Source of the DNA: Sphaerisporangium album
Lineage (GTDB): Bacteria > Actinomycetota > Actinomycetes > Streptosporangiales > Streptosporangiaceae
DNA: 64,000 bases
Direction: 5' to 3'
NCBI RefSeq assembly: GCF_003323745.1
Contig: NZ_QOIL01000013.1
Coordinates: 106,794-170,793, forward strand
Position 1 is the first letter of the stretch; each line of letters opens with the position of its first letter. Under the pieces are notes generated by a model that worked only from the letters and a program-made list of their open reading frames with translations, had not been told where the DNA came from and did not search any database. Both the position numbers and the translations under genes were made by a program. Positions 3,645-24,645 of the stretch are shown here, piece by piece.

Positions 3645-3645
3645 G

Positions 3646-7934: not shown

Positions 7935-8586
7935 AGCTGTAGCCCACGTTGCGGATCGTCTCGATGGAGTCGGCGCCGAGCTTGGTGCGCAGTCGCCGCA
8001 CGTACACATCGACCACGTTGCTGGCCGCGTCGAAGGCGTGCCCCCACACGTCGGTGAGCAACTCCTCGCGCCCGCACACCTGGTCGGCGCGCCGCATGAG
8101 ATGGCTGAGCAGCACGAACTCCCGCTGGGTGAGCTGGACGCTTCGGCCGTCCAGGTCCGCCGTGCGGCGGTGCAGGTCGAGCGCCACGTGCCCGGCGCGG
8201 ATCCAGCGCCGGGACGGCGGCCGCGCCGGCTCCGCCGCCCTGATGCGCACCCGGGCCACCAGTTCGGCCAGCGCGAACGGCTTGGACAGGTAGTCGACGG
8301 CCCCGGAGGCGAAGCACTCGACCTTGGCCGCGACGTCCCCGATGGCGGACAGGACGAGCACGCGCTGGCCGGGACGTCGTTCGAGCATCTGGCGCAGCAC
8401 GTCGATGCCGCTGAGCTGGGGGAGCATCAGGTCGAGGACGACCAGCGCGAACTCCTCCGTGTCGGCGAGGCGCAGTGCCTGCTCACCGGTGCCCACCCAT
8501 TGGACGACGTGACCGTCGCGTTCCAGGGCACGCGAGACGAACCGGCAGATCCTCGGTTCGTCGTCCACGACCATGATCCGGGGCAT
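7921..8586 (-). CDS. OmpR-family response regulator
   Basis: 221 residues from ATG 8586 (MPRIMVVDDEP); the upstream extension in frame is not regulator-like. The receiver domain has the acidic pair DD (8-9), phospho-acceptor D52 (VVLDLMLP) and the conserved lysine in YLSKPF. The C-terminal winged helix ends DVYVRRLRTKLG and IRNVGYSF, the OmpR/PhoB signature. It is co-transcribed with the overlapping histidine kinase and divergent from the beta-helix/multicopper operon at 8831. Direct repeats at 8724-8743 between the two transcripts are candidate binding sites. Confidence 0.92.
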   Translation of the reverse strand: MPRIMVVDDEPRICRFVSRALERDGHVVQWVGTGEQALRLADTEEFALVVLDLMLPQLSGIDVLRQMLERRPGQRVLVLSAIGDVAAKVECFASGAVDYLSKPFALAELVARVRIRAAEPARPPSRRWIRAGHVALDLHRRTADLDGRSVQLTQREFVLLSHLMRRADQVCGREELLTDVWGHAFDAASNVVDVYVRRLRTKLGADSIETIRNVGYSFVTG

Positions 8587-8723
8587 GAGGGCGCTCCACG
8601 CGGCTAAGCGGCGCCCCACCCGACGACGCCCATCTGTGCCTACCTCTCGTGTGTACCTGCCGAGATCACGACCGGCAAGCGCCCCGCTATGCCGGAAATG
8701 GACATCGTGTGATGATCTGCGGC

Positions 8724-8750
8724 GATGTGACGCCGATCTGACAGTCACAT
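8724..8750. promoter_or_regulatory. Candidate response-regulator binding repeats
   Basis: CGATGTGAC and CGATCTGAC recur with an 11-bp pitch, the spacing OmpR-type dimers favour, and TCACAT (8745-8750) is also an inverted match to ATGTGA (8725-8730). The site lies between the divergent regulator gene (start 8586) and the operon at 8831. Confidence 0.4.
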
Positions 8751-8830
8751 GACGGACTCGTCATCTACGGCGTCCGCCGGGCGCGGCTCGCGCACCGTTG
8801 CCGGGACGGATCACGGCAGGAAGGGCAGCC

Positions 8831-11800
8831 ATGCGCGCTCGTCGTATGCTCACCGCTCTCACGCTGTTGACGGCGGCGCTGACGGCCTTGGCGACGGGCA
8901 TCGTGCCCGCCACCGTGGTGACGGCCCAGGGCCAGGCCGGCGCGGAGGTGAGGCTCCGCGTCGTGTCGGCGCGTACCGGGGATCCGGTCACGTCGTACAA
9001 GTTCCTCGTCACCAAGGACGACACGGGCGACCCCGCGCACCCGCGCGACGCCGCGTGCCTGCCGGGGAGCGGCGCCCCGGAGACGTCCTATCCCAAGACC
9101 TGCGACTGGCCTTCCACGCACACCTTCACCGGCGGCGCCGGCGGGGCGGGCAACCTGGTCACCCAGGGCACCGAGGCGGAGTTCTCGGAGACCACGGGGC
9201 TGAACCTGCCCGAGGGCAAGTACATGGTCTCGGTGGTCGCCGACGGCTTCAAGATCGACGGCGGGTGGGTCACCGTCCCCTCGCCCGAGCGGGGCCCACT
9301 GACGGTGCGGCTCCAGCCCGACCCCCTGCCTCTGGCGCAGATCAGGGTCACGGTGTTCGAGGACAACGCCACCAACGGCCAGTTCGACCCCGCGGTCGAG
9401 CACGGCCTGGAAGGCTGGGTCGCGCACATCTCCGACGTGGTCGGCGAGGTCACCACCGACTGGTACGGCAACCCGCTGTGCACGCGGTACGACGCCGCCC
9501 ACGAGCCGATCGAGGGCACGGGCGGCGAGTGCGTCAGCGACGCGAGCGGCGCCATCGTGATCCCGAACCTGGGCTCCAACCGCTACAGCCTTCAGGTGGT
9601 CCCGCCGGACGGCCAGGAGTGGATCCAGACCTCCTCCCTCGAAGGCGGCCACGACTGGGACACGTGGGTGGAGGAGGGGCACAAGGGCTTCGACACCGAG
9701 CTGATCGTCAACGGCGCGCCGATCCCCGAGGCCCAGTTCGGCTACGTCAAGCCCACCTCCCTGGACTCCGCCCACTCGGGAAACGCCACGGTCAAGGGCC
9801 GTGTCGTCAGCGTGAAGTCCTACCTCCCGCCCGCCGGTGGCGACACCGTGGAGGGGCCCGTCGCCAAGCCGTGGATCGCCGTCACCGACCTGCTCGACAA
9901 CGACACGCTGGTGTACGCCGCCCCCGGCAACGCCGACGGCACCTTCTCGGTGCCGGACCTCAAGCCGGGCGACTACCAGGTCGCCTACTGGGACTACGAC
10001 CAGAACCTGCTGCTCCAGCTGATCAACGTCACGGTCGCGGACGGGCAGACGGCCGACCTCGGCGACCTGACGCTGTCGCACTGGTTCAGCCAGTTGCATG
10101 GCTCGGTGTTCCTGGACACCGACAAGGACGGCAGGCGCGACCCCGGGGAGCCGGGGCTGCGCTCGCAGCCGGTGGTGCTCAAGTCACGGGACAACTCGGT
10201 CGTCGACGCGGGCAGCAAGTCCGCCACGACCGACGTCCAGGGGAACTGGACGCTGCGGCAGGTCTACCCGTACGGCTACTGGACCGTGCTCGAGGTCTAC
10301 AACGACCGCTTCTACACCACCGGCTTCACCTACCAGACCGACAACCAGCCGGACGAGACGACGGTCCTCGGCAGCGGGGTCGACGTCGCGACGCTCAACC
10401 AGGACGGCCTCAACACGCGCGTCGACATCGGCGTGCAGCCGTACGCCCGCGGCACCAACGGTGGCATCGTCGGCACGGCGGTCTACAACCTGACCCGCAA
10501 CGAGCTCGACCCCCGCCTGGCGGCGACCGAGGACTACGAGCCCGGCGTCCCCGGCCTCACCGTGGACCTGTACGCCCCCGTGACCGGCCCCGACGGCGAG
10601 TACGTCACCGAGGCCGACGGGTCGTACAAGCTGGGCCGCAAGCTGAACACCTACCTCACCGAGACCTTCGAACGCCCCACCGACTGCCAGGCGCGCGACG
10701 CCGGCGGTTCGCCGCTGAACCTGCGGTTCGCGCCCCCGGCGTCCGGCGGCTACGAGTGCGTCGAGTCGCCGCTGATGGGCAACCAGGTGCAGAGGGGCTT
10801 CTCCACGGTCAACGGCAACTACGGCTTCACGACCGTGTGGCGGTACGGCCCCGACGGCGAGGTGGTCAAGGACGCCGACGGCGACGCGGTCGAGGACCCC
10901 ATGCCCAAGGGCGACTACCTCGTCAAGGTCGTGATCCCCGAGGACGCCTTCGGCAGGCCGAAGTACACGGTGACGCGGGAGGAGGACGTCAACGTCTTCG
11001 ACGGGGACGACTACCAGCCGCAGGTGCCCCCGCCGCCGTGCGCGGGCGCCCTGCACACCGTGGACGTCAAGGGGATCGCCCCCGACGGGCCGGACGCCGT
11101 GGACAATCCGACCTTCGCGGACGCGGGCGGCAGCCCGTACGAGGGCGAGCAGCGGCCGCTGTGCGACGTCAAGCTCGTCACCGTCAACGACCAGCGGTCC
11201 ATCGCGCCGCCGTTCCACCTGTTCACCGACGTGCCGCAGCCGGGCAGGCTGTTCGGCGCGGTCGTCGAGGACCTGGCGCTCGGCACCGACCCCAACGAGT
11301 TCTACTACGGCGAGAAGGCCGGCCTCCCCAACGTCCCCGTCGGCATCTACGACTTCACCGGCCGGCTGGTCCACACGATCACCAGCGACCCCAACGGCTT
11401 CTTCGAGGTGCTGCTGCCCTCCACGAAGACGATGAACTGCCCGCTCCCCGCGGGCCCCTGCCCGAACGTCTACCGCCTGGTCGGCAACGACCCGGGGGCG
11501 CCGGGCCATCCGAACCCGAACTACAACCCCGCCTACCGCACGCTCGCCTCCCAGTGGCAGATCTGGCCGGGCCTCACCCTGCTCGCCGACGTGGCGCTGT
11601 TGCCGACGACCCCGGCCATGGAGTTCCCCGGCTCGCAGACCCCGCACCCGCCGAGGTGCCTGCTCCCCGACGGGACCCCGGAACTGTTCGCGGTGTCGAG
11701 GCCCTACGTGAACGGCACCGGTTCGTTCACCATCTCCGGGCAGGGCTTCGGCGCCACCACGGGCAAGGTCCTCCTCGACGGCACGCAGCTCCCGGCGACC

Positions 11801-13993
11801 GGCTGGACCGACCGGGCGATCACGGCGACCGTGCCGCTGCTGACGCCGCCGGGGCCGCACCGCCTGCGCATCGTGCGGTCCGACGGCAGGGAGGCGCGCA
11901 ACACGCTCACCTTCCACGTCCTCGGCGGGACCTACACGCCGGCCGTGATCGAGGTCGGCCCCGGGAAGGCGCACGCGAAGATCCAGGACGGCCTGGAGGC
12001 CGCCGCCGGGGTGCCCCGCGCGCTCGTGGTCGTCTACCCCGGCACGCCGTCCCCGTTCGCCCCGCTCGGTGACTACTTCGAGAGCGTCGTCGTCCACTCG
12101 CCCGTGAAGCTCCAGGGCGTCGGACCCGGCGGCGTCCGCGCGGACGGCAGCTCGGTGCCCGGCTCGATCATCAACGGCCTCGGGTTCTCGGCCGAAGGCG
12201 CGGCGCGGTGGAGCACCCTGGTCGAGGGGATCAAGGCGTCGCCCGGCTGGAGCGGCAACCAGCAGATCTCCGAGGGACAGGTCGTCTACGTCGTCGCCAG
12301 GGACGGGACGTTCACCCCGCAGTACAAGGCCGGGATCGACGGCTTCACGATCCAGGGCGGAGACGAGTTCGGCCTGGAGGGCACGTTCGTCACGCCCTTC
12401 TACCCGGTCCAGGGCGGCGGCGTCTACGTCAACGGCTACGCCCGCGACCTGCAGATCACCAACAACGTGATCAGGAGCAACGGCGGCGCGTACGGCGGCG
12501 GCATCCGGCTCGGCACCCCGGACATCGGCAGCAACCACAACGACCGCGTCCACGTCGGCTACAACCGGATCCTGCACAACGGCGGCTCCAACCTGGCGGG
12601 CGGCGTCGCGGTGTTCAACGGCGCCGACGGCTACGAGATCGACCACAACGAGATCTGCGGCAACTTCTCCGCCGAGTACGGCGGCGGCATCACCCACTAC
12701 GGCCTGTCGGGCGCGTCGGGCGGCCCCAACTCGATCCACCACAACCTGATCTGGGCGAACGGCTCCTACGACGAGGGCGGCGGGGTCATGTTGGCCGGTG
12801 AGGCGCCGCCCGCGGTGCCCGGCGGCCCGCCCTCGCCCGGGTCCGGCCCGGTCGCCGTCCACGCCAACATCATCCAGTCCAACCTGGCCTCCGACGACGG
12901 CGGCGGCGTCCGCCTGCTCCAGGCGGGGAACTGGCCGATCGACATCTACAACGACATGATCGTCAACAATGTCTCCGCCCACGAGGGCGGCGGTATCGCC
13001 ATCGACGACGCCACCCGCGTGCGCGTCTACAACACCACCGTCATGAAGAACATCACCACCGCGACCGCCGCGACCGGCAACGGCGACCCGGCCCCCGCGG
13101 GCCTGTCCACGGCGGCCAACAGCGCGCCGCTCCAGGCGACGCTGCCCCCGGGGTCGCCCACGTTCAGCGACCCGCTGCTGTTCAACGACGTCTTCCACGA
13201 CAACAGGGCGGGCGCGTGGGACGGTACGAACGCCCGGCTCACCGGCCTCGGGCAGCCCGGAGACGCCACGCCCGTGAACGTGTGGGACCTCGGCGCGGCG
13301 GACCTCAGCGGCAGGCTCTCTCCGACCAACACCTTACTCACCAAGGACCATCCGGCCTATGTCAACGCGGCGCCGTCCAACGTGGTGGGCAGGGACCCGA
13401 AGGTGCTGCGGCCCTACGACACGGTCGTGCAGGCCCTGGCCTGGCGCGGCGCGCCGCAGTTCGTCCAGAGCGTCATCATCTCGATGGACCAGCCCGCCCA
13501 GCTCGCAGGGGACTACCACCTGCAGCCGAGGGCGAACGGATCGCCCGCGCTGGACGTGGGGGCCATCGGCAAGGCGGGCGTCCTCGCGCCGCTCGTCGAC
13601 ATCGACGACCAGCTCCGGCAACTGCTCCGGTACGACCTCGGCGCCGACGAGGAGCGGTCGGACGCGCCGCTGCCCCTGATGACCGGCCTGACGGCCCTGC
13701 CCGGCGCGGTGAGGGCGGGGACCAAGGTCGCGCTAGGCGCGCTCACGAGCCACACGCTCACCGGAAGTTCCCCCATCGCGGCGGCGGAGTGGTTCACCGG
13801 CGCCGACCCCGGGGCGGGCCGCGGCACGGCGATGCGCGCCGTGGACGGCAGGTTCGACGCCGCCACCGAACTGGTCAGCGCCTCGGTGGACACCACCGGC
13901 TGGCCGAAGGGCCCGCGGACGGTGTCCGCGCGCGCCAGGGACGGCAACGGTAACTGGACCCTGCTCAAGACCACGACCATCACGATCAGGTAG
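8831..13993 (+). CDS. Giant secreted SdrD-like/TIG/beta-helix protein
   Basis: 1720 residues. ATG 8831 is chosen because AGGAAGG sits 8 nt upstream and a signal peptide (MRARRMLTALTLL, cleavage near residue 35) follows directly. From about 36 to 900 there are repeated Ig/Cna-B-like modules with SdrD-B features, for example FLDTDKDGRRDPGEPGL near 425. An IPT/TIG-like module lies around 956-1035. A right-handed parallel beta-helix runs around 1040-1400, with ITNNVIRSNGG, IDHNEICGN and VYNTTVMKN ladders. A C-terminal region of about 320 residues has no recognised domain. No sortase motif or membrane anchor is seen, so it is secreted or held by partners. It is the first gene of an operon with three cupredoxin proteins 7 bp downstream, so a scaffold, adhesin or substrate-binding role for an extracellular oxidase complex is plausible but inferred. 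Confidence 0.85.
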   Translation: MRARRMLTALTLLTAALTALATGIVPATVVTAQGQAGAEVRLRVVSARTGDPVTSYKFLVTKDDTGDPAHPRDAACLPGSGAPETSYPKTCDWPSTHTFTGGAGGAGNLVTQGTEAEFSETTGLNLPEGKYMVSVVADGFKIDGGWVTVPSPERGPLTVRLQPDPLPLAQIRVTVFEDNATNGQFDPAVEHGLEGWVAHISDVVGEVTTDWYGNPLCTRYDAAHEPIEGTGGECVSDASGAIVIPNLGSNRYSLQVVPPDGQEWIQTSSLEGGHDWDTWVEEGHKGFDTELIVNGAPIPEAQFGYVKPTSLDSAHSGNATVKGRVVSVKSYLPPAGGDTVEGPVAKPWIAVTDLLDNDTLVYAAPGNADGTFSVPDLKPGDYQVAYWDYDQNLLLQLINVTVADGQTADLGDLTLSHWFSQLHGSVFLDTDKDGRRDPGEPGLRSQPVVLKSRDNSVVDAGSKSATTDVQGNWTLRQVYPYGYWTVLEVYNDRFYTTGFTYQTDNQPDETTVLGSGVDVATLNQDGLNTRVDIGVQPYARGTNGGIVGTAVYNLTRNELDPRLAATEDYEPGVPGLTVDLYAPVTGPDGEYVTEADGSYKLGRKLNTYLTETFERPTDCQARDAGGSPLNLRFAPPASGGYECVESPLMGNQVQRGFSTVNGNYGFTTVWRYGPDGEVVKDADGDAVEDPMPKGDYLVKVVIPEDAFGRPKYTVTREEDVNVFDGDDYQPQVPPPPCAGALHTVDVKGIAPDGPDAVDNPTFADAGGSPYEGEQRPLCDVKLVTVNDQRSIAPPFHLFTDVPQPGRLFGAVVEDLALGTDPNEFYYGEKAGLPNVPVGIYDFTGRLVHTITSDPNGFFEVLLPSTKTMNCPLPAGPCPNVYRLVGNDPGAPGHPNPNYNPAYRTLASQWQIWPGLTLLADVALLPTTPAMEFPGSQTPHPPRCLLPDGTPELFAVSRPYVNGTGSFTISGQGFGATTGKVLLDGTQLPATGWTDRAITATVPLLTPPGPHRLRIVRSDGREARNTLTFHVLGGTYTPAVIEVGPGKAHAKIQDGLEAAAGVPRALVVVYPGTPSPFAPLGDYFESVVVHSPVKLQGVGPGGVRADGSSVPGSIINGLGFSAEGAARWSTLVEGIKASPGWSGNQQISEGQVVYVVARDGTFTPQYKAGIDGFTIQGGDEFGLEGTFVTPFYPVQGGGVYVNGYARDLQITNNVIRSNGGAYGGGIRLGTPDIGSNHNDRVHVGYNRILHNGGSNLAGGVAVFNGADGYEIDHNEICGNFSAEYGGGITHYGLSGASGGPNSIHHNLIWANGSYDEGGGVMLAGEAPPAVPGGPPSPGSGPVAVHANIIQSNLASDDGGGVRLLQAGNWPIDIYNDMIVNNVSAHEGGGIAIDDATRVRVYNTTVMKNITTATAATGNGDPAPAGLSTAANSAPLQATLPPGSPTFSDPLLFNDVFHDNRAGAWDGTNARLTGLGQPGDATPVNVWDLGAADLSGRLSPTNTLLTKDHPAYVNAAPSNVVGRDPKVLRPYDTVVQALAWRGAPQFVQSVIISMDQPAQLAGDYHLQPRANGSPALDVGAIGKAGVLAPLVDIDDQLRQLLRYDLGADEERSDAPLPLMTGLTALPGAVRAGTKVALGALTSHTLTGSSPIAAAEWFTGADPGAGRGTAMRAVDGRFDAATELVSASVDTTGWPKGPRTVSARARDGNGNWTLLKTTTITIR

Positions 13994-13999: not shown

Positions 14000-15268
14000 A
14001 TGAGCGGAAACCAGATCAGCCGGCGCGGCCTGCTGCGGGCCGCCACCACGGCGGCCGCCGGCGCCGCCACGGGCGGATGGCTGCTGCGCGACGCGACGGC
14101 GGGCGCGGCCGCCGTCCGGGGGACGGCCCTGCCCCCGACCGTCCACCTCGCCGCGACCGACGGGTGGATCTCCCTGCCCGGGCAGGTGGCGGGCGTCCAC
14201 CCCGACCCGATGGCCCCGGCGCCGTTCACCACGTGGGGCTTCGGGTTCCGCGACGTGACCACGCTCACCGCGACCCAGGTGAAGGCGCAGAAGGGCAGGT
14301 TCCAGGCGCCCGCGCCGATGTGGTGGGTGGACGAGCTGCAGGACACGCGCGTGCAGCTCACCAACCTCGGCATGGTCGTCAGGCCCGACCTGAGCGACTC
14401 GCACACCGTTCACTGGCACGGCTTCCGGAACGCCGTCCCGCTGTTCGACGGGGTGCCGGAGCTGTCCGTCGCGGTGCCGATCGGCCGGGCGTTCACCTAC
14501 TTCTACCGGCCGCGCGACCCGGGCACGTACATGTACCACTGCCACTTCGAGGACGTCGAGCACGTCTCGATGGGCATGACCGGCATCGTCTTCGTGCGCC
14601 CGCGCCAGAACGCGGGCGCGCCGGGGATCCCGCCCGGCAAGTACGTCTACAACGACGGCGACCGGTCGACCGCCTACGACCGCGAGTGGGGCATGTTCCT
14701 GTCCGAGGCCTGGACGCGGGAGCGCTTCGAGGGCGCGCACATCCAGGAGCACGACTGGAGCGAGTACGACGCCGACGTGTGGATGCTCAACGGCCGTTCG
14801 TACCCGGACACGCTCGCTCCCGGCGGGGGAGGTACCGGGGCCGGCGGGGACCTCATCGCTCCCGCCGGATATCCGAAGCTGAAATATCAGCCCATCTCAT
14901 CTCTTGTCCGCTGCATGTCCGGCGAGAAGGTCCTGCTGCGCCTGGTCAACCTCGGGTTCCAGCAGCACACGATGACGCTCGCCGGCATCCCGATGCGCGT
15001 GGTGGGCAGGGACGCCACCCTGTCGCGCGGCCGCGACGGCACCGACCGGTCCTTCCTCACCAACGCCGTCCACATCGGCCCGGGCGAGAGCGTCGACGCG
15101 ATCTTCACGGCCCCGGCCGTGAGCGCCCCGGCCGTCCACCTGCTCTACAACCGCGCGTACGCCACGCTCGGCAATCCGGGCGTCGCCGGGCTCGGAGGCC
15201 AGGTGACCGAGGTGCGCGTGCTGCCCGCGGGAAGCGGCCTGCCGCCGCAGACCGCGCCCAACACCTGA
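14000..15268 (+). CDS. Tat-exported multicopper oxidase-like protein (two-domain)
   Basis: 422 residues. The N-terminus has a Tat signal (SRRGLLRAA), fitting a cofactor-loaded export substrate. Copper ligands cluster in the first cupredoxin domain: HWHG from H138, and HCHFEDVEHVSMGM from H180, where C181, H188 and M193 match a type-1 site and H180/H182 match trinuclear-centre ligands. In the second domain the usual HPxHxHG is reduced to QQHTM, so only one histidine remains. The second half of a trinuclear centre is therefore missing in the monomer. It starts 7 bp after the giant beta-helix gene. It could be a two-domain laccase type working as an oligomer or with its neighbours. Confidence 0.87.
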   Translation: MSGNQISRRGLLRAATTAAAGAATGGWLLRDATAGAAAVRGTALPPTVHLAATDGWISLPGQVAGVHPDPMAPAPFTTWGFGFRDVTTLTATQVKAQKGRFQAPAPMWWVDELQDTRVQLTNLGMVVRPDLSDSHTVHWHGFRNAVPLFDGVPELSVAVPIGRAFTYFYRPRDPGTYMYHCHFEDVEHVSMGMTGIVFVRPRQNAGAPGIPPGKYVYNDGDRSTAYDREWGMFLSEAWTRERFEGAHIQEHDWSEYDADVWMLNGRSYPDTLAPGGGGTGAGGDLIAPAGYPKLKYQPISSLVRCMSGEKVLLRLVNLGFQQHTMTLAGIPMRVVGRDATLSRGRDGTDRSFLTNAVHIGPGESVDAIFTAPAVSAPAVHLLYNRAYATLGNPGVAGLGGQVTEVRVLPAGSGLPPQTAPNT

Positions 15269-15283
15269 ACGGCGGAGGACCTC

Positions 15284-16534
15284 ATGCTCGTACGCAAGGC
15301 ACTGCGCGCGGTCACGGCCGCCGCGGCGCTCGTGCTCCTGCCGGCCCCGCAGGCGCACGCCGCACCGCCCGAATCGGGTGTCTCCTGCACGACCGGCCCG
15401 TCCTTCGACCTGGCCGCCGCCGACGGCGCCGCCGGGTTCCCGGACGGCAACACGGTCCACATGTGGAGCTACACCGTCGACGGGAACGCGTTCCAGCTCC
15501 CCGGGCCGGTGCTGTGCGTCACCGAGGGCGACGTCGTCACCGTCACCCTCCGCAACACCCTCCCCGAGCCCGTCTCGCTGTTCGTCCCGGGAATGACCGG
15601 CGTGACCGCCGACGGGTCGCCCGCGCAGCCGCAGTTCACCGGCGGCACGCTCACCTCGCTCGTGCAGGCCGCGCCGCCCGGCGGCACCGTGACCTACCGG
15701 TTCACGGCCTCGGCCCCCGGCACCTACCTGTACGCCAGCGGCACCGACCCCGCCAAACAGGTGCAGATGGGCCTCTACGGCGCGCTGATCGTGCGCCCGG
15801 CGGGCCACCCCGACCGCGCGTACGGCACGGACGCGAGCCGCTTCAACCCGGCGGCCGAGTACATCTCGCTGCTGTCGGAGGTCGACCCCGACCTGCACGC
15901 CGCGGTCGAGAACGGCAGGCCCTACGACGTGACCAAGCTCCACCCGCGGTACTGGCTGATCAACGGCCGGAGCTTCCCCGACACGATCGCGCCCAACGGG
16001 GCCGGGTGGCTGCCGAGCCAGCCCTACGGGTCGCTGATCCACATCCGGCCGAAGGACCCGGTGACCAACCCGCACCCGGCGCTCGTGCGCTACCTCAACG
16101 CCGGAGACCGCATCCACCCCTTCCACCCCCACGGCAACCACGGCCGGGTGATCGGACGGGACGCCCACACGCTCGTGGACGGCGCCGACCTGTCGGCCGA
16201 GAACTTCCTCGCCGACATCGGGCCCGGCCAGACCTGGGACGTCACCTACGACTGGACCGACGTGGAGAAATGGCGGCCCGGCACCAACCCGATCCCGGTG
16301 CCGCTGCCCCAGCAGCAGAACCTCGTCTACAAGGACGACGCCACCTGGTACGGCGGCAGCCCGTACCTCGGCGTCACCGACGGCCTGCCCGTCGGCGTCA
16401 CGTCCTACAACGAGTGCGGCGAGTACTACCAGATGTGGCACAGCCACGCGCTCAACGAGGCCGCCAACTACGAGGCGGGCTTCGGCGGCATGATGACGCT
16501 CGAGCGCGTCGACCCCCCGGGAGGGTGTTCCTGA
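15284..16534 (+). CDS. Secreted multicopper oxidase-like protein with degenerate type-1 site
   Basis: 416 residues, with a Sec-type signal peptide to about residue 26 (PAPQAHA-A). Two cupredoxin domains. The first lacks the histidine pairs: the usual LYHSH position reads LYASG. The second has HPFHPHG (H278, H281, H283) and H286. At its C-terminus the expected HCH reads HSH (386-388) in MWHSHALNEA, so the type-1 copper cysteine is replaced by serine. The protein may bind one or two coppers but is unlikely to be a complete oxidase by itself. GGAGGACCTC precedes the ATG. It lies 15 bp from the upstream oxidase-like gene and overlaps the next gene by 1 nt. Confidence 0.86.
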   Translation: MLVRKALRAVTAAAALVLLPAPQAHAAPPESGVSCTTGPSFDLAAADGAAGFPDGNTVHMWSYTVDGNAFQLPGPVLCVTEGDVVTVTLRNTLPEPVSLFVPGMTGVTADGSPAQPQFTGGTLTSLVQAAPPGGTVTYRFTASAPGTYLYASGTDPAKQVQMGLYGALIVRPAGHPDRAYGTDASRFNPAAEYISLLSEVDPDLHAAVENGRPYDVTKLHPRYWLINGRSFPDTIAPNGAGWLPSQPYGSLIHIRPKDPVTNPHPALVRYLNAGDRIHPFHPHGNHGRVIGRDAHTLVDGADLSAENFLADIGPGQTWDVTYDWTDVEKWRPGTNPIPVPLPQQQNLVYKDDATWYGGSPYLGVTDGLPVGVTSYNECGEYYQMWHSHALNEAANYEAGFGGMMTLERVDPPGGCS

Positions 16535-17634
16535 TGCGCGCGCCCCACGCGTCCGCCCGCCGATTCGCCCTCGCCTGCGGTGCCCTCACGACGGCCACCG
16601 TCCTCCTGACCCAGCCCCCCGCCACGGCCCAGCCGTCCCTCACCACCCGGTCGTCCGCCACGGCCAAGTCGGCGGTGACCGCCCTACCGGCCGCGACCGC
16701 CGGGTCCGGCGCCGCGGCCGAGCGCACCCGCGCTTCCACGGCCGCCGCCCTGCCGTCCTCGCCGTGCACGCCGAACGCGGGCGTGCGCGCATGCGAGCTC
16801 TGGGCCAAGACGGGCACGCTCGCGCTGCCCGGCGGGGTCACCGTGCCGATCTGGGGCTACGCGGCCGCCGCCGGCGACCCGCCGTCGCTGCCGGGGCCGC
16901 TGCTGCTGGCCACCGCGGGCGAGACCGTGCGGGTCACGGTGCACAACATGCTCGGCGAGGCGACGAGCCTCGGCCTGCCCGAACAGGACGTGCCCCCCGA
17001 CACGACGGGCGCCGCCCCCGGGGCGTCGAGGACCTACGAGTTCACGGCGACCCGGCCCGGGACGTTCCGGTACGAGGCCGGGCTGACCGGCGGCGGGCCC
17101 CGGCAGGTCGCCATGGGCCTGGCCGGCGCGCTCGTCGTCCGGCCGGCCTCCGGAGGCGGCGCCTACGGCACGCCCACGACGGCCTTCGACGACGAGGCGC
17201 TGGTGGTGCTGCAGGGGATCGACCCGGCGTTCAACGCCGCGCCGTCCACCTACCCCATGTCCCGCTACCGTCCCCGGTACTGGCTCATCAACGGGGCGGC
17301 GTACCCGGACACGGCGCCGATCCCCACCGCCCAGGGGCACCGGCTGCTCCTGCGGTACGTCAACGCGGGACTCGAAGACCACCCGATGTCGCTGGCAGGG
17401 GCGTACCAGAGCGTCGTCGGCGCGGACGGCCGGGAGGCCGGGCATCCGTACACGGTGTTGTCGGAGACCGTGATCGCGGGCGGGACGATGGACGCCGTCG
17501 TCGCCGTCCCCCCGGGGGCGCCGCCGCTCATCCCGCTCTTCGAGGCCGCCCGCCACATCGACAACGCCGGCCACGTCACCGCCGGGACCGTCGACCTCGG
17601 CGGCATGCTCACCTTCATCGCGGTGACCCCATGA
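16534..17634 (+). CDS. Secreted cupredoxin-fold protein, ligands largely lost
   Basis: 366 residues. ATG 16534 overlaps the previous stop by one base (TGATG), with GGGAGGG about 8 nt upstream. Signal peptide to about residue 34, then an Ala/Ser/Thr-rich linker. Two cupredoxin-like domains are recognisable by order and by shared phrases with its neighbours (VAMGLAGALVVRP, RPRYWLINGAAYPDTAP, DHPMSLAG). The HxH motifs of a multicopper oxidase are absent from domain 1 (FRYEAGLTGG) and only a single His remains in domain 2. It is therefore probably a non-catalytic paralogue, perhaps a structural partner or copper carrier. Domain 2 most resembles that of the first oxidase-like protein of this operon. 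Confidence 0.82.
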   Translation: MRAPHASARRFALACGALTTATVLLTQPPATAQPSLTTRSSATAKSAVTALPAATAGSGAAAERTRASTAAALPSSPCTPNAGVRACELWAKTGTLALPGGVTVPIWGYAAAAGDPPSLPGPLLLATAGETVRVTVHNMLGEATSLGLPEQDVPPDTTGAAPGASRTYEFTATRPGTFRYEAGLTGGGPRQVAMGLAGALVVRPASGGGAYGTPTTAFDDEALVVLQGIDPAFNAAPSTYPMSRYRPRYWLINGAAYPDTAPIPTAQGHRLLLRYVNAGLEDHPMSLAGAYQSVVGADGREAGHPYTVLSETVIAGGTMDAVVAVPPGAPPLIPLFEAARHIDNAGHVTAGTVDLGGMLTFIAVTP

Positions 17635-18278
17635 CCGACCCGCCCCACGACGAGCCCACGACCGATTCACCTGACCACGGGCTCGCGAACGGCTCGGCCG
17701 GCGACGGGGTCGTGGCCGGTTCACCTCACGAAGGGTTCGTGGCCGGTTCGGCTCACGAGGGGACTGCGACCGCCTCCCCCCAGGACCGGACCGTCACCGG
17801 CTCACCCCACCACGGGACCGCGACGGGGTCGCCTCGCCGTCGGATCGTGGCATGGTGGCTGACGGCCGGGGCGGTGGCGGCCGTGGCGGCGCTGGTCGTC
17901 GTGCTCGCCCTGCCCCACGGCGGCGGGACCGCGCGGGCCGGGATGCCCGCCGCCCCCGACGTCGAGCAGCGGTACGGCGTGCGCTTCACGATGGTCGGCG
18001 TGACGGCCGACCACGGCCTGCTCGACGTGCGGTTCATCGTCCTGGACCCGGACCGGGCGGCGGCCATGCTCTCCGACGCGCGACGGCTGCCGCGCGTCAT
18101 CGTGGACACCGCGGGCAGGGCCCTTCCGTCGCCCGCGCTCATGCCGATGATCCACGATCCGGTCGCAGGGCGGACGTACTACGTGCTCTACCGCAACTCC
18201 GGCGGGGTGATCCGCCGGGGCGACACCGTGACCCTGGCCTTCGACCAGGCGAGCGTGCCCCATGTCCCGGTTCTCTAG
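17631..18278 (+). CDS. Single-span membrane protein with 9-residue repeats
   Basis: 215 residues, starting at an ATGA overlap with the previous stop. Residues 16-69 are six copies of a 9-residue repeat of the form (D/E/H)G-x-(A/V)-(A/T)-G-S-(P/A)-H, encoded by 27-bp DNA units. A membrane span follows (IVAWWLTAGAVAAVAALVVV, about 72-91), then an extracytoplasmic domain of about 120 residues with no recognised family. The repeats are Gly/Ser/His-rich, so a metal-binding or flexible role is possible. It overlaps the CopC-CopD gene by 17 nt. Not recognised by name; probably a dedicated membrane component of this copper-like operon. Confidence 0.75.
   Translation: MTDPPHDEPTTDSPDHGLANGSAGDGVVAGSPHEGFVAGSAHEGTATASPQDRTVTGSPHHGTATGSPRRRIVAWWLTAGAVAAVAALVVVLALPHGGGTARAGMPAAPDVEQRYGVRFTMVGVTADHGLLDVRFIVLDPDRAAAMLSDARRLPRVIVDTAGRALPSPALMPMIHDPVAGRTYYVLYRNSGGVIRRGDTVTLAFDQASVPHVPVL
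17676..17837 (+). repeat. Six 27-bp tandem repeats inside the membrane-protein gene
   Basis: Six degenerate in-frame 27-bp units coding for a 9-residue repeat that begins with HG, DG, EG, EG, DR and HG and ends GSPH-like. The period is exact, with no indels. Confidence 0.75.
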
Positions 18279-20244
18279 GCCCGCGTCGGCCACCCGGCGC
18301 GGGCCGGCGGCTGTCTCGCCCAGGGCGGCCATTCCGTCCAAGGTGGCGGGCCTCATGCCCAGAGTGGCCGGCCTCAGGCCCAGAGTGGCGTCCATCCTGC
18401 TCAGGCTCGCGGCGGCCACCCTGCTGTGGGTCGTGGTCATGGCCGGGACGGCCTCGGCGCATCCGATCCTGGTCGGTTCCGAGCCGGCCGACGGGCAGGT
18501 GCTGTCCAGCGCTCCCGCACGGCTGCGGCTGGAGTTCACCGAACCGGTCCTGCTCTCCTCCGTCCGCCTGTCGTTGCACCCATCGGCCGGCACGGTGCGT
18601 TCCCTCACCCCGTCGGCGGAGGCGGCGGGCCGCGTGGTGGCCTCGCTCCCTCCACTGGCCGAGGACATCTACGCGGTCCGCTGGGCGGCGACGTCCAGCG
18701 AGGACGGCCACCGCCTCGGCGGAAGCCTCGTGTTCGGCGTCCGGCGCGCGGTGACCGCGGCGGGGCAGGCGGTCCGCGAGGGCCCGCGACCCTGGGACTC
18801 CGTGCTCGCCGCGATCCGCACCGTCGGCCTCTCGACGGCCGTTGGCGGCTTCCTCACGGCGGCGCTCCTCGTGCCGCTCGCACGCCGCCGTCACCCCGTC
18901 GGCCCGTGGGCGCGCGTCACCCGGCACGCCCTGCGTGCCGGGTCGGCGGGGACCGGTGCGGCACTCGCGGCGGTGACCGTCGTCGCCGCCCAGTCCGTCT
19001 GGCTGATCATCGACACGGCCCACGGCCGCCGGATGATCGAACAACTCGTGCTCCTGCTCGCCGCGTTCTTCCTCGCACGCCGCGCGACGATGCGGGACGA
19101 CCGCCCAGCCGCGCTCGGGGCCGTGTGCGCCGGGCTCGCGGTCGTGGTGGGGGCGCTCGACGGGCACGCCGCCGCGGCGGGGGAGGCGTTGCCCGCCGCC
19201 GTGCACGCGCTCGGCGCCGCCGTCTGGATCGGCGGGGTGATCGCGCTCGCGGTCGCCGGCCTGCCGATGCTCGCCGACCGTGCCCAGCGCGCGGCCGTCC
19301 GCGCCCTGCTCCGCGGGTTCGCGTGGCCCGCCGCGGCGGCCGTCGTGGCCCTCGGCGTGACCGGGCCGCTGCTCGCCGGAGGTCAGATCGCCACACCGTA
19401 CGCCGGCCTGGTCACCCCCTACGGGCTCATCCTCGCGATCAAGCTGGTGTTCCTGCTCGGGGTGGCGGCCGTCGCGATCCGCGTCGCGCGGGGCCGGACG
19501 GGAGGCAGGCTGCTGGTCGTGGAGGCGGTGCTGCTCGCCGAGGTCGCCTGCTGCGCGGCGGTGCTGACCGTCACGCCGCCCGCCAGAGGGCCGGGCCTGG
19601 ACCCGGTGCCCGCCGCCGCGCCGCTCCAGCGCAGCGTGAGGCTGGACGACCTGGTGCTGGCCGTCTCGGTCCGGCCGGGCACGCCGGGCAGGAACCTCGT
19701 CACCGTCGACGTGTACGACACGCGCCGCCCGGCGCCCGGACGCCTGAGCGCGGTGCGGCTCGGCGTGGGGAACGCCCCGCTGGCGGCCGTGGCGGTGGCC
19801 GAGCGGCGGTGGGAGGCCGTCGCCGACCTTCCCCCGGCGGGACAGGTGCCCGTCCAGGTCGGCGTCCAGCGGGACGGCCTTCCGGACGCGGGGGTGAGGC
19901 TGGACTGGGCCGTCCGGGGAGACGCTCCCCGGGGCTTCCTGGCCGAGCGGTCCCTGGCGTCCGTCACCGGCGTCATGGCGTGGACGATCGCCGCCCTCGG
20001 AGCGGTGGCGGCGGCCGTGGCCCTCCTGAGCTCTGTGAGGAGGCGCCGAGAAGAGGGCTCTGTGCCGAAGCGCCGTGAAGACGGCTCTGTGAGGGTGGGC
20101 CGTGAAGACGGCTCTGTGAGGGTGGGCCGTGAAGACGGCTCTGTGAGAAGGAAGCGCCGCCATGACGATCCGAGCCCTCGCCCTGATATTGCTGGTGAGC
20201 CTGACGACCGTGCCCACGTATCCCGCGAGCGTGCCGGAGCCTGA
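18262..20244 (+). CDS. CopC-CopD fusion, copper transport/tolerance protein
   Basis: 660 residues. After an N-terminal export segment the mature CopC domain starts with the invariant histidine (H67 in SAHPILVGS), the copper-coordinating N-terminus of CopC. SSEDGHRLGG near 150 supplies the second conserved His. Beyond about residue 185 there are eight or so membrane helices of the CopD family, then an extracytoplasmic segment and a last helix. CopC binds periplasmic or extracellular copper and CopD is thought to pass it inward (family knowledge), so this gene could supply copper for the cupredoxin proteins. The C-terminal tail (596-631) has four 9-residue repeats REDGSVRVG. The last 83 nt overlap the subtilisin gene in another frame, unusual for this window. 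Confidence 0.9.
   Translation: MSRFSRPASATRRGPAAVSPRAAIPSKVAGLMPRVAGLRPRVASILLRLAAATLLWVVVMAGTASAHPILVGSEPADGQVLSSAPARLRLEFTEPVLLSSVRLSLHPSAGTVRSLTPSAEAAGRVVASLPPLAEDIYAVRWAATSSEDGHRLGGSLVFGVRRAVTAAGQAVREGPRPWDSVLAAIRTVGLSTAVGGFLTAALLVPLARRRHPVGPWARVTRHALRAGSAGTGAALAAVTVVAAQSVWLIIDTAHGRRMIEQLVLLLAAFFLARRATMRDDRPAALGAVCAGLAVVVGALDGHAAAAGEALPAAVHALGAAVWIGGVIALAVAGLPMLADRAQRAAVRALLRGFAWPAAAAVVALGVTGPLLAGGQIATPYAGLVTPYGLILAIKLVFLLGVAAVAIRVARGRTGGRLLVVEAVLLAEVACCAAVLTVTPPARGPGLDPVPAAAPLQRSVRLDDLVLAVSVRPGTPGRNLVTVDVYDTRRPAPGRLSAVRLGVGNAPLAAVAVAERRWEAVADLPPAGQVPVQVGVQRDGLPDAGVRLDWAVRGDAPRGFLAERSLASVTGVMAWTIAALGAVAAAVALLSSVRRRREEGSVPKRREDGSVRVGREDGSVRVGREDGSVRRKRRHDDPSPRPDIAGEPDDRAHVSRERAGA
20047..20154 (+). 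repeat. Four 27-bp tandem repeats at the 3' end of the CopC-CopD gene
   Basis: Units begin at 20047, 20074, 20101 and 20128. The last three share the core CGTGAAGACGGCTCTGTGAG. They encode R-E-(D/E)-G-S-V plus three variable residues. The repeat ends just before the ribosome-binding site of the next gene. Confidence 0.85.
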
Positions 20245-21577
20245 GCGGACCGCCGTCGTCGTCTACCTCAAGGACCGGGCGGACCTCGGCCGTCTGCCGC
20301 CGGAGGCCCTGCCCGCGCACCGGCGCAGGGTCGTGGAGGAGCTTCGCCGGGTCGCGGACCGCGCTCAGGCGCCGCTGCTGCGCGCCATCGAGGCCGAACG
20401 GCGACGGGGCGCCGTCACCGGCGTTCACCGGCTCTGGAACGTCAACGCGATCGCGCTGACGGCGACACCGGACTTCGCCGCGTCGATGGCCCGGCGTCCG
20501 GAGGTGGCGTCCGTGGTCCCCGACACCACCGCTTTCGCCCTCGCGACGGGCACCGGCCGGGTGACGGGGGCCACCGCCACGACCGCACCCCACGCCGCGG
20601 CCATGGTCGCCGCCGCCTCGCAGGGCGTCGTTCCCCGGACGGGCACTCGCGAGATCGGCGCGCGACTGGCGGGGGTCGAGGCGAACCTGGCGCAGTCGGG
20701 TGCGCCCTCGCTCTGGTCGCTCGGGCTTCTCGGCGAGGGGGTCGTCGTGGCGAGCGTCGACACCGGGGCGGACGTGACGCATCCCGACCTGGCGCCCCGG
20801 TGGCGGGGCGGTCCGGGCTCGTGGTTCGACCCGTACGGCGAGCACGCGACGCCCTTCGACGCCTCCGGGCACGGCACCTGGACCATGGGCGTCATGGTCG
20901 GCGGCGACGCGGGCGGCACGGCCATCGGCGTCGCGCCCGGCGCCCGGTGGATCGCGGCCAAGGCCTTCGACGACGGCGGCGTCGCGACGACCTCCGGGCT
21001 GCACGCGATCTTCCAGTGGCTGCTCGACCCCGACGGCGACCCGGCCACCGACGACGCCCCTGACGTGGTCAACAACTCCTGGACCTTCGCCGCCAAGGGG
21101 TGCAACCTGGCCTTCGAGCCCGACCTGGCCGCGTTGCGGGCGATCGGCGTGCTACCGGTCTTCGCGGCGGGCAACGGCGGGCCGTACGCGAGCAGTTCCT
21201 ACAGCCCGTCCAACAACCCGTCCGCGTTCTCCGCCGGGGTGGTGAACGGCTCCGACGTGATCCTCTCCATGTCCAGCAGGGGCCCGTCGGCGTGCGGCGG
21301 GCGTACGGGCGTGTTCCCGGACGTGGTCGCACCCGGCAAGGACACCTGGACCAGCGACCTGTACGGCATGTGGACCAGCGCGACGGGCACGTCGATGGCC
21401 GCGCCGCACGTCAGCGGTCTGCTGGCGCTGGTGCTATCCGGCCGGCCGGGACTGACGGCGGCCCAGCAGGCGGCGGCGGTCACCACGGGCGCCCGCGACC
21501 TCGGCGTCCCCGGCCCCGACAACACCTACGGCAAGGGCCGCCTCGACGCCCTCGCGACATGGAACGCCCTGCCCTGA
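20162..21577 (+). CDS. Secreted S8 subtilisin-family peptidase
   Basis: 471 residues. Signal peptide to about residue 22, a propeptide (inhibitor I9-like, with VVYLKDRADLG and EVASVVPD) to about 120, then the S8 domain. Catalytic triad: D200 (SVDTGADVTHPD), H237 (SGHGTW) and S411 (GTSMAAPH); the oxyanion Asn is in VVNNSW. The substrate may be a partner of the operon, for example maturation of the giant secreted protein or of the oxidase-like proteins, but this is inference; a nutritional protease is equally possible. AAGGAAG lies 7 nt before ATG. The gene overlaps the CopC-CopD gene by 83 nt and the transcript ends at the hairpin at 21798-21837. Confidence 0.93.
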   Translation: MTIRALALILLVSLTTVPTYPASVPEPERTAVVVYLKDRADLGRLPPEALPAHRRRVVEELRRVADRAQAPLLRAIEAERRRGAVTGVHRLWNVNAIALTATPDFAASMARRPEVASVVPDTTAFALATGTGRVTGATATTAPHAAAMVAAASQGVVPRTGTREIGARLAGVEANLAQSGAPSLWSLGLLGEGVVVASVDTGADVTHPDLAPRWRGGPGSWFDPYGEHATPFDASGHGTWTMGVMVGGDAGGTAIGVAPGARWIAAKAFDDGGVATTSGLHAIFQWLLDPDGDPATDDAPDVVNNSWTFAAKGCNLAFEPDLAALRAIGVLPVFAAGNGGPYASSSYSPSNNPSAFSAGVVNGSDVILSMSSRGPSACGGRTGVFPDVVAPGKDTWTSDLYGMWTSATGTSMAAPHVSGLLALVLSGRPGLTAAQQAAAVTTGARDLGVPGPDNTYGKGRLDALATWNALP

Positions 21578-21879: not shown

Positions 21880-24645
21880 TCAGGACGGGGTGATGGTGTA
21901 GGTCGCTCCCGCCTGGGTCGGGAAGGTGACGACGTCGTTGGCCACGGTGTGGCCGACCGTGCCGCCGCCTGCCCGTGTCACCACGACCGCGCGGCCGGGC
22001 CACGGGTTGCCGACGCTCGCGGTGCGGCCCGCGTCGCTGGTGATGTCGACGTACGAGACCGTGCCGCCGACGCGGGCGCTGGAGACGAGGAACCCGTTCT
22101 TGGCCCGGAGCTTGACGAAGGAGGCGTTCCTGCCCGCGGGCCACACCGGGTACAGGCGCATGACGCCGCCGTCGCTCTGGAGCAGCACGTCGTTGACGGC
22201 CTCGATCGCGCCCGCCTTCTCCAGCCCGTGGTTGGGGTCGGTGATCCGCAGGTTGGGGGCGATCTTGGAGGTGATCTGGCCCTTGAGCTTGTCGATCAGG
22301 CTCTGGGCCGGGTAGCCGACGCGGGCGGCCTGGGTGAACACCTTGGGGAAGCTGTTCTCCTGGCCCCAGGAGTTCATCACGTCGATCGTGGCGATGGCGA
22401 CCTGCCTGTCGGCGGCGGGGGAGTTGATGCCGAGCGCGTCGCCCGGGTGGATGAACTCCAGGTTGACGGTGTTGTCGCCCGGCCGGATGGGCCGGTTGTC
22501 GGACAGCGTGCCGGGGTCGGCCAGCGCGTACACCGTCTGCCCGTTGTAGGTCGTCCTCGGGATGTCCGGCAGGCGCGAGGCGATGTTCTGCCAGGTGGCC
22601 CGGTCGCCGGCGTCCACGTTGAGCTCGGTGCTCGCACTGACCAGCGAGGAGAACAGCCGCTTGAGCATGCCCCCGTCGGGGCTTGAGTTGCGCCCCCACG
22701 TGCCCTCGTGCGGCCCGCTCCACAGCCGGTAGCGCCCTGCGGCCGAGTCGTACTCCAGGTAGCTCTGGAAGAACGCCGCGACCTCCTTCATGAAGGGGTA
22801 GGCCGTGCCGGACAGGAAGGCGCGGTCCTGGGTGTACTCCCAGTACGAGATGTACTGCGTGACCGTGAACAGCGAGTTGGCCACCTGCTGGTGGTAGACG
22901 TCGCCGACGGTGGAGCCGAACGGGCCGATCCCGACCGGGAACAGCACGCCCGCGGGCACGCCGCCGCTCGGGAAGCGCGCGCTGACGTAGTCGGGCTTGA
23001 CCCGGTTCAGGTCCTGCCGTGCGCGCCGCCTGGCCTCGGGCAGGTAGGCCTGCACCAGGTCGTACAGCGGCAGGGCCAGCTCCGGCCGGTTGCTGGAGTA
23101 GACGCCGTAGAAGTTGGCCACCCAGTTGTAGTTGAGGTGCATGTCGCCACCCCACTGCGGGAAGTCGGAGGTGGCCCAGATGCCGTACAGCCCGGGCGCC
23201 GTCTTGCCGGCGCGGATCGACGAGCCGAGCAGGTACAGCGAGCCGTAGTAGAACCTCTCCAGCGTGTCGTCGTCGAGGTCCACGTACGACTTGAGCCAGT
23301 ACTGCTTCCACCAGTCGAGGTGCGCGTTGTAGAGCGCGTCGATCGAGCCGGCGTTCTGCCCGTCGGCGAGGCCGCGGGCGGCCGGGGCCGGGTCGGCGGG
23401 GTTGGGCCCGCCCCCGGCGACGCCGGTGACGACGGTCACGGTCTGGCCCGGTGGCAGGTCGAAGACGATGTTCCCGGCGGCTCCGCCCGCCGTCGGCGCG
23501 CCGACCTGCGTCCCTCCGATGACGCGGGTGGCGAGGGACGCGCGGGAGACCCAGCGTGAACCGGACGGCGTCTGGCGCGTCGCCCACACGGTGTTGCCCG
23601 AGACCCCCGAGGTGCTGGTGAAGCCGCCGCGCGCGTCCGGCGACCCCGTGGCGGTCTGCGCCTGGAGGCGTACGGTGGACGACCCGGTGGAGCGGATCCG
23701 CGTCACCACGAGGTCGCTGGAGGCCGCCGTCCAGGTCTTCATGACCACGGGGGTGCCGCCGATGGTCATCGTGGTGTCCACGTCGCCCTGGAGGATGTTC
23801 TGCTCCTCGGTGAACGGGCCGGACGGCGGCTGCGGCCCTCCTCCCGCGCCGTACAGCTCGAACTGGCCGATGCGCGCCCGCGGGTTGGCTGTCGAGTCGG
23901 GCGTGGTGCTCTGTGTGGGTTCGGTGATGGTGAGGCGCAGGTAGCGGGCGGTGGTCGAGGCGAACGTCCGGTCGGTGACGTTGGCCGTGTTGCCCGTGAC
24001 CGTGTCGGCCGTCGTCCAGGTGGAGTTGTTCGTGCTGGTGGCCAGGGTCCAGTTCCTGGTGTTGTTGGCGGTCTCGGCGGGGCGGGCCGCGGCGTCGTGG
24101 CGGAGGATGTAGCGGTTGAAGGTCTTGGCCGTGCCGAGGTCCAGGGTGAGGGTTTGCGGTTTGCCGATGTCGGAGACCCAGCCCTCGTACCCCGCGCCCC
24201 ACTGGCCGTTGACGGCCCTGTTCGGCGGGAAGGACGGGTGGGAGCTGGAGGCCGTGGCGCCGGCGCCGAGGGCCAGGTTGGACGAGCCGCCCCCGGCGAC
24301 CGGGCTGATCGAGACCGAGCCCAGCGCGACCAGGGACACGTCCGGGTTGCCGGTCCAGAAGTCGCCCTTGGAGATGTAGAACGTCTTGTACCCGTCACCT
24401 CCGCCGGAGGTGACTCCGATGTCGCCGTTGCCGAGCAGCGCGGTGTTCGGCATGGTGCGGGTCACCGAGCCGGAGTAGGCCTGGTCGGTCCAGCGCCCCT
24501 TGACGGGGCCCACGAGCTGCTGCACCTGGGCCCATTGCTGGTCGGGTGTGGGCGCGGCGGACGCGGCCGTGGGCGCGGCCACCAGCGTCATGGTCAGGGC
24601 GGCGGCCAGTGCGGCGGGCAGCAGCCGGCGTCGTGGTCTGTACAC
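21880..24645 (-). CDS. Secreted GH95-like glycoside hydrolase with inserted discoidin module
   Basis: 921 residues, GTG start with AAGGGAA upstream. Signal peptide to about residue 31. The hydrolase N-domain begins with NTALLGNGDIGV and ISKGDFW, phrases typical of GH95 (alpha-L-fucosidase/galactosidase) and related proteins. It is interrupted at about 121-275 by an F5/8-type-C (discoidin/CBM32) module, SSNLALGAGATASS to IGQFELYG, then resumes. The catalytic helical barrel covers about 430-800 (QWGGDMHLNYNW, WSGPHEGTWG, EFIHPGDALG). The exact substrate is uncertain. It is the last gene of a minus-strand operon with a MalEFG-type importer, so the released sugar is probably what the importer takes up. 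Confidence 0.82.
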   Translation of the reverse strand: MYRPRRRLLPAALAAALTMTLVAAPTAASAAPTPDQQWAQVQQLVGPVKGRWTDQAYSGSVTRTMPNTALLGNGDIGVTSGGGDGYKTFYISKGDFWTGNPDVSLVALGSVSISPVAGGGSSNLALGAGATASSSHPSFPPNRAVNGQWGAGYEGWVSDIGKPQTLTLDLGTAKTFNRYILRHDAAARPAETANNTRNWTLATSTNNSTWTTADTVTGNTANVTDRTFASTTARYLRLTITEPTQSTTPDSTANPRARIGQFELYGAGGGPQPPSGPFTEEQNILQGDVDTTMTIGGTPVVMKTWTAASSDLVVTRIRSTGSSTVRLQAQTATGSPDARGGFTSTSGVSGNTVWATRQTPSGSRWVSRASLATRVIGGTQVGAPTAGGAAGNIVFDLPPGQTVTVVTGVAGGGPNPADPAPAARGLADGQNAGSIDALYNAHLDWWKQYWLKSYVDLDDDTLERFYYGSLYLLGSSIRAGKTAPGLYGIWATSDFPQWGGDMHLNYNWVANFYGVYSSNRPELALPLYDLVQAYLPEARRRARQDLNRVKPDYVSARFPSGGVPAGVLFPVGIGPFGSTVGDVYHQQVANSLFTVTQYISYWEYTQDRAFLSGTAYPFMKEVAAFFQSYLEYDSAAGRYRLWSGPHEGTWGRNSSPDGGMLKRLFSSLVSASTELNVDAGDRATWQNIASRLPDIPRTTYNGQTVYALADPGTLSDNRPIRPGDNTVNLEFIHPGDALGINSPAADRQVAIATIDVMNSWGQENSFPKVFTQAARVGYPAQSLIDKLKGQITSKIAPNLRITDPNHGLEKAGAIEAVNDVLLQSDGGVMRLYPVWPAGRNASFVKLRAKNGFLVSSARVGGTVSYVDITSDAGRTASVGNPWPGRAVVVTRAGGGTVGHTVANDVVTFPTQAGATYTITPS

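Follow-up and report, generated by a model that had tools for sequence, protein, structure and literature searches.

Can the copper ligands of a single multicopper oxidase (MCO) be divided among the products of different genes? The usual mark of an MCO is a set of four copper motifs within one protein, and related copper oxidases usually hold a full ligand set in one chain. The question is raised by three consecutive genes in a 64,000-nucleotide (nt) stretch of DNA from Sphaerisporangium album (NCBI RefSeq assembly GCF_003323745.1, contig NZ_QOIL01000013.1, positions 106,794 to 170,793 of the forward strand), which we refer to as the window and whose own numbering we use for its features. These genes, here termed P1, P2 and P3, each encode a protein in which Pfam cupredoxin/MCO (Cu-oxidase) domains were found, and the presence of two cupredoxin domains per chain is also indicated by AlphaFold2 secondary structure and by fold matches. 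We consider it likely that the three products are subunits of one exported MCO, with a trinuclear copper centre (TNC) predicted to lie at the interface between P1 and P2, and with P3 in a structural role. The genes are laid out as follows.

14000..15268, + strand: P1, 422 amino acids (aa), two cupredoxin domains; domain 1 with a putative type-1 copper site and one putative TNC half.
15284..16534, + strand: P2, 416 aa, two cupredoxin domains; domain 2 with the putative second TNC half; type-1 Cys absent.
16534..17634, + strand: P3, 366 aa, two cupredoxin domains; no copper ligands; putative role as structural or adaptor subunit.

Together the three proteins span 1,204 aa. The 15-nt spacing between P1 and P2 and the 1-nt overlap between P2 and P3 given in a preliminary description of this locus agree with the sequence, whereas the gap it put at 7 base pairs is the 6-nt spacing upstream of P1 (between TAG 13991-13993 and ATG 14000).

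The argument for a divided centre starts from the ligands themselves. An alignment of P1 was scanned against 84,980 species genomes and gave 297 relatives, and all counts over 79 loci given below refer to the best 79 of these 297; column counts drop gapped rows and do not include the window sequence itself, and one locus (L041) supplies two P2 rows. The motifs, with the roles we assign to their residues, are these.

14402..14422, + strand: HTVHWHG, P1 residues 135-141; type-1 H135, TNC H138 and H140 (His in 79/79 homologues at each).
14537..14578, + strand: HCHFEDVEHVSMGM, P1 residues 180-193; TNC H180 and H182, type-1 C181, H188 and M193 (78-79/79).
16115..16135, + strand: HPFHPHG, P2 residues 278-284; TNC H281 and H283 (77/77 aligned rows).
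16439..16447, + strand: HSH, P2 residues 386-388; TNC H386 and H388 (76/76 aligned rows).

In domain 1 of P1, H135, H138, H140, C181, H182 and H188 are kept in all 79 homologues, and H180 and M193 in 78; the two P1 motifs, H135-TV-H138-W-H140-G and H180-C181-H182...H188...M193, are thus present as first described. HPFHPHG and HSH are likewise found in P2 as originally reported, but H278, which had been listed there among the trinuclear ligands, occupies the place of a type-1 ligand and is unconserved (His in only 10 of 77 rows, Tyr in 55). Position 387 of P2, between the two histidines of HSH, is occupied across the homologues by Ser, Asn, Val or Asp, and by Cys in none. His is absent from the four equivalent TNC places of P2 domain 1 (0/76), and at those of P3 domain 1 it occurs in 0-1 of 68-71 rows. 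Two of the four TNC places could be matched in the second domains of P1 and P3, and His was found at neither (0/79 at each in P1, 0/70 in P3); around the remaining two there is no His-rich column, the maximum being 12/53 in P1 and 21 of 66-70 in P3. Neither ligand set is present in P3, in which the preliminary description had seen almost none.

Judged from these alignments, each three-gene set holds one type-1 site plus one full set of TNC ligands, divided between P1 and P2. The conserved half-sites of the two proteins complement each other, which bears out the proposal that a full set exists only when the chains are taken jointly. A complete centre in a homotrimer of P1, which had been put forward as grounds for doubt, finds no counterpart in the alignment, domain 2 of P1 having no conserved His for the second half of a TNC. 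The invariance of the four P2 histidines also speaks against the initial alternative of an active P1 with two purely structural partners.

The arrangement of the genes recurs well beyond the window. By phylum, the 79 loci comprise 43 from Actinomycetota, 32 from Chloroflexota, one each from Pseudomonadota and Dormibacterota, and two that are unassigned. In 71 of them the genes are consecutive and co-oriented as P1-P2-P3, the triplet order that the preliminary description had proposed to look for in other genomes; 70 of these loci have single open reading frames (ORFs), and L041 makes up the number. (In L041 P2 is spread over two overlapping frames, at 2707-3722, through a sequencing error or a real break.) Seven of the eight remaining loci stop within 340 bases of the end of their last family ORF. 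The family genes accordingly occur together, and not mostly alone, which had been named as an outcome that would speak against a shared enzyme. Because gene order and ligands are conserved in homologues across phyla, we reject an origin of the pattern by chance or by annotation artefact. Seven further Pseudomonadota loci from six genomes (L016 and L117-L122) were examined, and all contain P1, P2 and P3 with the same P1 and P2 motifs, P3 being truncated by a contig end in L117 and L121. Wherever both were found, P1 and P2 are separate ORFs, and no P1-P2 fusion was seen among the matches listed in plasmid searches (21, 312 and 10 matching records; two regions inspected).

The system is nevertheless rare and patchy within the phylum, as P2 (at E 1e-20) was detected in only one of 80 genomes of the same family, the window's own, and in three of 396 genomes of the phylum. 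In the class of a Methylococcaceae genome (G475), a P1-like match at E 1e-12 was obtained in 11 of 274 genomes; four of these 11 matches are weak (E > 1e-14, in frames of 337-368 aa) and resemble ordinary copper proteins. Genomes G487 and G580 gave further matches. In a tree of P1, the window pairs with a sequence from Chloroflexota at a support of 100/99, and that phylum also supplies all of the nearest rows, a placement that suggests horizontal transfer, though such placement is no proof. Pairwise distances in P1, P2, P3 and UP, the protein encoded upstream of P1 (see below), are correlated with one another at 0.79-0.92 (52 rows, window included, L041 excluded, with no species-tree baseline). 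Some individual relatives deserve mention. Residue 242 of P1 (14723-14725), near the conserved H247 (73/79), is Arg in the window and His in 78 of 79 homologues. One genome (G287) carries two P1-P2-P3 sets on different contigs (L011 and L013/L123). The sole Pseudomonadota member of the 79-locus set, L066, belongs to a Methylococcaceae metagenome-assembled genome titled MnB_9, Mn-Methylococcaceae-1, which hints at a manganese-related sample; a literature search on this genome found no paper. On a haloarchaeal plasmid (L017, 5695-8075), a gene with an MCO domain is directly followed by one with a halocyanin domain.

How might the chains be packed? The closest solved relatives of P1 domain 1 by sequence are 3g5w and 2zwn, both two-domain proteins. 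At one locus (L059) all three genes share one reading frame, and this natural stretch could therefore be folded as a single chain. AlphaFold2 modelled P1-P2-P3 of L059 with a mean predicted local distance difference test (pLDDT) of 83 and a predicted template-modelling score (pTM) of 0.85, and P1-P2 of the window with a pLDDT of 84 and a pTM of 0.84. In Foldseek searches, ceruloplasmin, factors V/VIII and MnxG align with these models at tiny E-values; their template-modelling scores relative to the query (TMq), however, are 0.20-0.22 for the three-chain model and 0.26-0.29 for P1-P2, and the lone two-domain unit 3g5w already gives a TMq of 0.22 with the three-chain model. Single two-domain units match the three-chain model with scores relative to the target (TMt) of 0.75 for 3g5w and 0.72 for 2zwn, and Thermus laccases reach 0.71-0.73. 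The confident placement of the chains, together with the low TMq to the fused proteins, argues that the packing differs from a ring in gene order; the alternative ring order, P2-P1-P3, would place domain 2 of P2 against domain 1 of P1, as the ligands require. The conserved half-sites, the gene order and the confident AlphaFold2 placement of P1 and P2 thus favour the earlier suggestion of a hetero-oligomeric oxidase with an inter-chain TNC.

The three genes appear to belong to a larger unit, whose other members are listed here.

8798..13993, + strand: UP, the upstream protein, a 1,731-aa secreted protein with SdrD_B-like, CarboxypepD_reg, TIG and beta-helix segments (Pfam).
17631..18278, + strand: 215-aa protein; 4-nt overlap with the P3 stop; N-terminus that by eye looks like a membrane segment.
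18262..20244, + strand: CopC-CopD fusion (PF04234, 3.9e-15; PF05425, 0.0015, under its cut-off).

By eye, the likely start of UP is the ATG at 8831; the Pfam score of its beta-helix is slightly below the cut-off. In 72 of the 79 loci P1 is preceded, in the same orientation, by a relative of UP that ends within 1 kb of the start of the P1 model (within 400 nt in 65); in the remaining seven, no more than 651 nt of the locus lie ahead of the P1 match. UP (at E 1e-40) and P2 (at E 1e-20) co-occur in the identical three of 396 genomes. Among the Pseudomonadota, a UP homologue is located before P1 in L117-L119, and at L016 (Cupriavidus metallidurans), L120 and L122 it forms a fusion with P3. Against UP as a constant partner, a search of the 6.1 kb preceding P1 at L121 (1-6132) gave no UP match; P1, P2 and a cut P3 are present there. 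C-terminal extensions of P3 homologues contain the Ig-like domain Big_13 above its cut-off in four of five tested. A Pfam search with the 215-aa protein gave no match; relatives of it occur in 61 of the 79 loci and relatives of the CopC-CopD fusion in 39, in both cases counted at any position, a few of them not downstream. The CopC-CopD protein probably functions in copper import or handling. The unit exceeds three genes in that it includes UP, and it probably includes the two downstream genes as well.

Right after the CopC-CopD gene, at 20162-21577 (+ strand), lies a gene for a subtilisin-like (S8) protease, with relatives somewhere in 23 of the 79 loci, which may be part of the operon. A secretin gene lies close to the Cupriavidus P1-P2-P3 set, and in L077 a repeat-rich surface protein (8282-11326) comes after P2. 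Elsewhere in the window are a 921-aa secreted protein with a stretch that by eye is like a discoidin-type carbohydrate-binding domain (21880-24645, - strand) and a GTPase-like protein beginning LNLGILAHVDAGKTSLTEQLL (61156-63129, - strand), which by eye is like ribosomal-protection or elongation-factor GTPases.

Export signals add a further asymmetry between the subunits.

14018..14035, + strand: SRRGLL, twin-arginine translocation (Tat)-type motif in the P1 signal peptide.

By a home-made motif rule, which skipped rows with fewer than 35 upstream residues, a Tat-like signal is present in 77 of 78 homologues of P1, in 8 of 76 of P2 and in 4 of 71 of P3. Tat-like signals in P1, mostly absent from P2 and P3, suggest that folded P1 would meet P2 only after export.

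These observations can be combined into a scheme in which the three two-domain subunits would form a three-part ring resembling that of homotrimeric two-domain MCOs, with one of three possible active sites retained. A substrate would be oxidised at the type-1 copper of P1 (H135, C181, H188 and M193), and electrons would travel through the His-Cys-His bridge to a TNC shared by P1 domain 1 (H138, H140, H180 and H182) and P2 domain 2 (H281, H283, H386 and H388), where O2 would be reduced to water. P3 would close the ring and probably connect it to the surface protein UP. With P1 delivered by Tat, and P2 and P3 apparently exported by the general secretory (Sec) pathway, the centre would acquire its full set of ligands only outside the cytoplasm, and the CopC-CopD protein may assist in copper supply. 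We infer the shared centre, a 1:1:1 stoichiometry, catalysis, the consequence for export and the docking to UP. As to the substrate, our guess is a metal ion outside the cell, for instance Mn(II), Fe(II) or Cu(I).

Several points weigh against this scheme. The natural stop codons were read as Gly in the joint models, and the chains so tethered could be biased towards contact; linkers and two loops, one after HWHG in P1 and one before HxH in P2, have a pLDDT below 50; and the contact between P1 domain 1 and P2 domain 2 is suggested by exclusion from the models. The laccase-like packing seen for the three-chain model is not confirmed for P1 against P2, laccases matching the P1-P2 model with a TMt of only 0.41-0.56 among the 50 matches listed. 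Mean-field covariation (71 rows, effective number of sequences 59, L041 excluded) failed to separate the two ring orders: among the top 1,000 inter-chain pairs, 262 fit the P2-P1-P3 ring against 240 expected, and 243 fit the gene-order ring against 238 expected. Pairs between P1 domain 1 and P2 domain 2 even fall below expectation in the top 1,000 (61 against 98), with 6 against 5 in the top 50. At L077, P3 is absent from the 3 kb beyond P2 despite there being room for it. The conservation of the P1 motifs is partly built in, since the genome scan used patterns derived from them; that of P2 and P3 is independent of this selection. Finally, no experiment on any family member was found in the open-licence literature.

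What else, then, could these genes encode? The alternative that fares best, although we think it rather unlikely, is that the active enzyme is a P1-P2 heterodimer or a higher alternating assembly, with P3 a separate adaptor outside the ring. The good pTM of P1-P2 modelled alone fits this view, as do the three loci in which P3 is fused to a UP homologue. The three-chain model is as confident, however; P3 shares the two-domain fold, and it comes after P2 in 71 of the 79 loci, most of the others being ended by a contig boundary.

A second possibility, which we judge improbable, is that the three genes are a known six-domain manganese oxidase of the MnxG/MofA type cut into three. The total size is alike (1,204 aa against the 1,217 aa of the MnxG chain 9bxa_A), as are the six cupredoxin domains and export. 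The type-1 site, however, is here in the first domain and the TNC halves are in domains 1 and 4 of the gene order, and the TMq to MnxG is 0.22 for the three-chain and 0.29 for the P1-P2 model. The P1 matches listed across the 274 genomes of the G475 class, moreover, are in frames no longer than 691 aa. On the basis of ligand positions, TMq and separate ORFs we reject a split MnxG/MofA, with MofA set apart by description.

It is also improbable, and a shade more so, that P1 alone is a blue-copper electron-transfer protein, with P2 and P3 structural and no TNC formed. P1 by itself does hold a complete type-1 site. A blue-copper protein, though, needs neither of the TNC His sets, yet four such histidines in P1 domain 1 and four in P2 domain 2 are conserved, and P2 has retained its TNC histidines while losing the type-1 Cys and, mostly, the type-1 His. 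Kinship with copper nitrite reductases, and so no O2-reducing oxidase at all, is scarcely credible and was rejected: all three chains are weakly similar to copper nitrite reductase models, but their scores of 30.8, 36.7 and 35.6 bits with the NCBIfam model Cu_nitrite_red (TIGR02376) are far below its cut-off of 296.3, the HCH of P1 (HCA in copper nitrite reductases) supplies two type-3 ligands, and eight TNC-type histidines are distributed over P1 and P2.

We thus return to the exported three-subunit oxidase with a centre shared by P1 and P2. In its fullest form the reading extends to an obligately heteromeric MCO whose TNC is completed only after export, from a Tat-delivered half, bearing the type-1 copper, and a Sec-delivered half. 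A third cupredoxin subunit, catalytically empty, and a giant surface scaffold of beta-helix type would hold the two halves, the system being present in at least four phyla, probably with a part played by horizontal transfer. The enzyme may serve as a metal- or mineral-surface oxidase and be built on a plan of its own that MnxG does not share. Taken as a whole we favour this extended version only narrowly. The building of one copper centre from two different proteins looks like an unrecognised but widely conserved route to such an enzyme. A large laccase survey discarded sequences without all four motifs (PMC3192119), and a filter of this kind would screen out such a split system gene by gene. 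If the reading is correct, a family so far known in the form of homotrimers and single-chain enzymes would include a natural example of an active site shared by the products of separate genes, and the locus would offer a direct test case for the evolution from homotrimer to asymmetric heterotrimer and six-domain fusion. Export route and copper-cluster assembly would also be linked, and a candidate extracellular metal or organic oxidase would be added to Actinomycetota and Chloroflexota.

Several known systems share features with the three-gene set. Ceruloplasmin, hephaestin and factors V/VIII resemble it in their three cupredoxin-domain pairs and in the loss of some copper sites, but the three-chain model gives no whole superposition on ceruloplasmin or factors V/VIII (TMq ~0.21). 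These proteins are single chains, and ceruloplasmin and hephaestin have their TNC between domain 1 and domain 6 (PMC3600357). The same source places the type-1 copper of bacterial six-domain MCOs in domain 2 and their TNC between domains 2 and 3. MnxG, MofA and OmpB likewise share with our set a total of six cupredoxin domains, one TNC and export, with a size here near that of MnxG; they differ in being single chains where three genes are found here, MofA and OmpB being compared by description only. A PCR study puts motif D of MnxG ahead of motif B, both in one fragment that covers ~235 aa (PMC3039467), and the spatial order of MnxG differs from that of our models, as the TMq values of 0.22 and 0.29 reflect. 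Its partners MnxE and MnxF, at ~12 kDa (PMC5622069), are unlike UP.

Heterodimeric fungal laccases resemble the present case in having more than one kind of subunit. In these enzymes the large subunit has the full copper set and the small one is not known to carry a cupredoxin half-site. A search of the literature on heteromeric or split MCOs matched only 'heterodimeric laccase' among the papers listed, and the open-licence literature searched in PubMed Central (PMC) showed no MCO whose TNC is split over the products of separate genes.

The nearest parallel is with the two-domain MCOs 3g5w (blue copper oxidase, BCO, of Nitrosomonas europaea) and 2zwn (a metagenomic two-domain laccase), which we take to be of type C. 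Like P1, they have the type-1 site in domain 1 with HxxHWHG and HCHx5Hx4-5M, and, as P2 is predicted to do, they carry the other TNC half in domain 2. Where type C has all four copper regions in one chain, two are found here in P1, two in P2 and none in P3. As set out in one source, type C stands for an N-terminal position of the type-1 site, and in trimers of two-domain MCOs the TNC ligands are supplied by two protomers (PMC13151041). Two-domain laccases are described as homotrimers with each site between two like monomers (PMC3192119, PMC13151041); in the locus described here, by contrast, the motifs are split over two genes and the third gene is empty, so that only one site per three-part assembly is possible.

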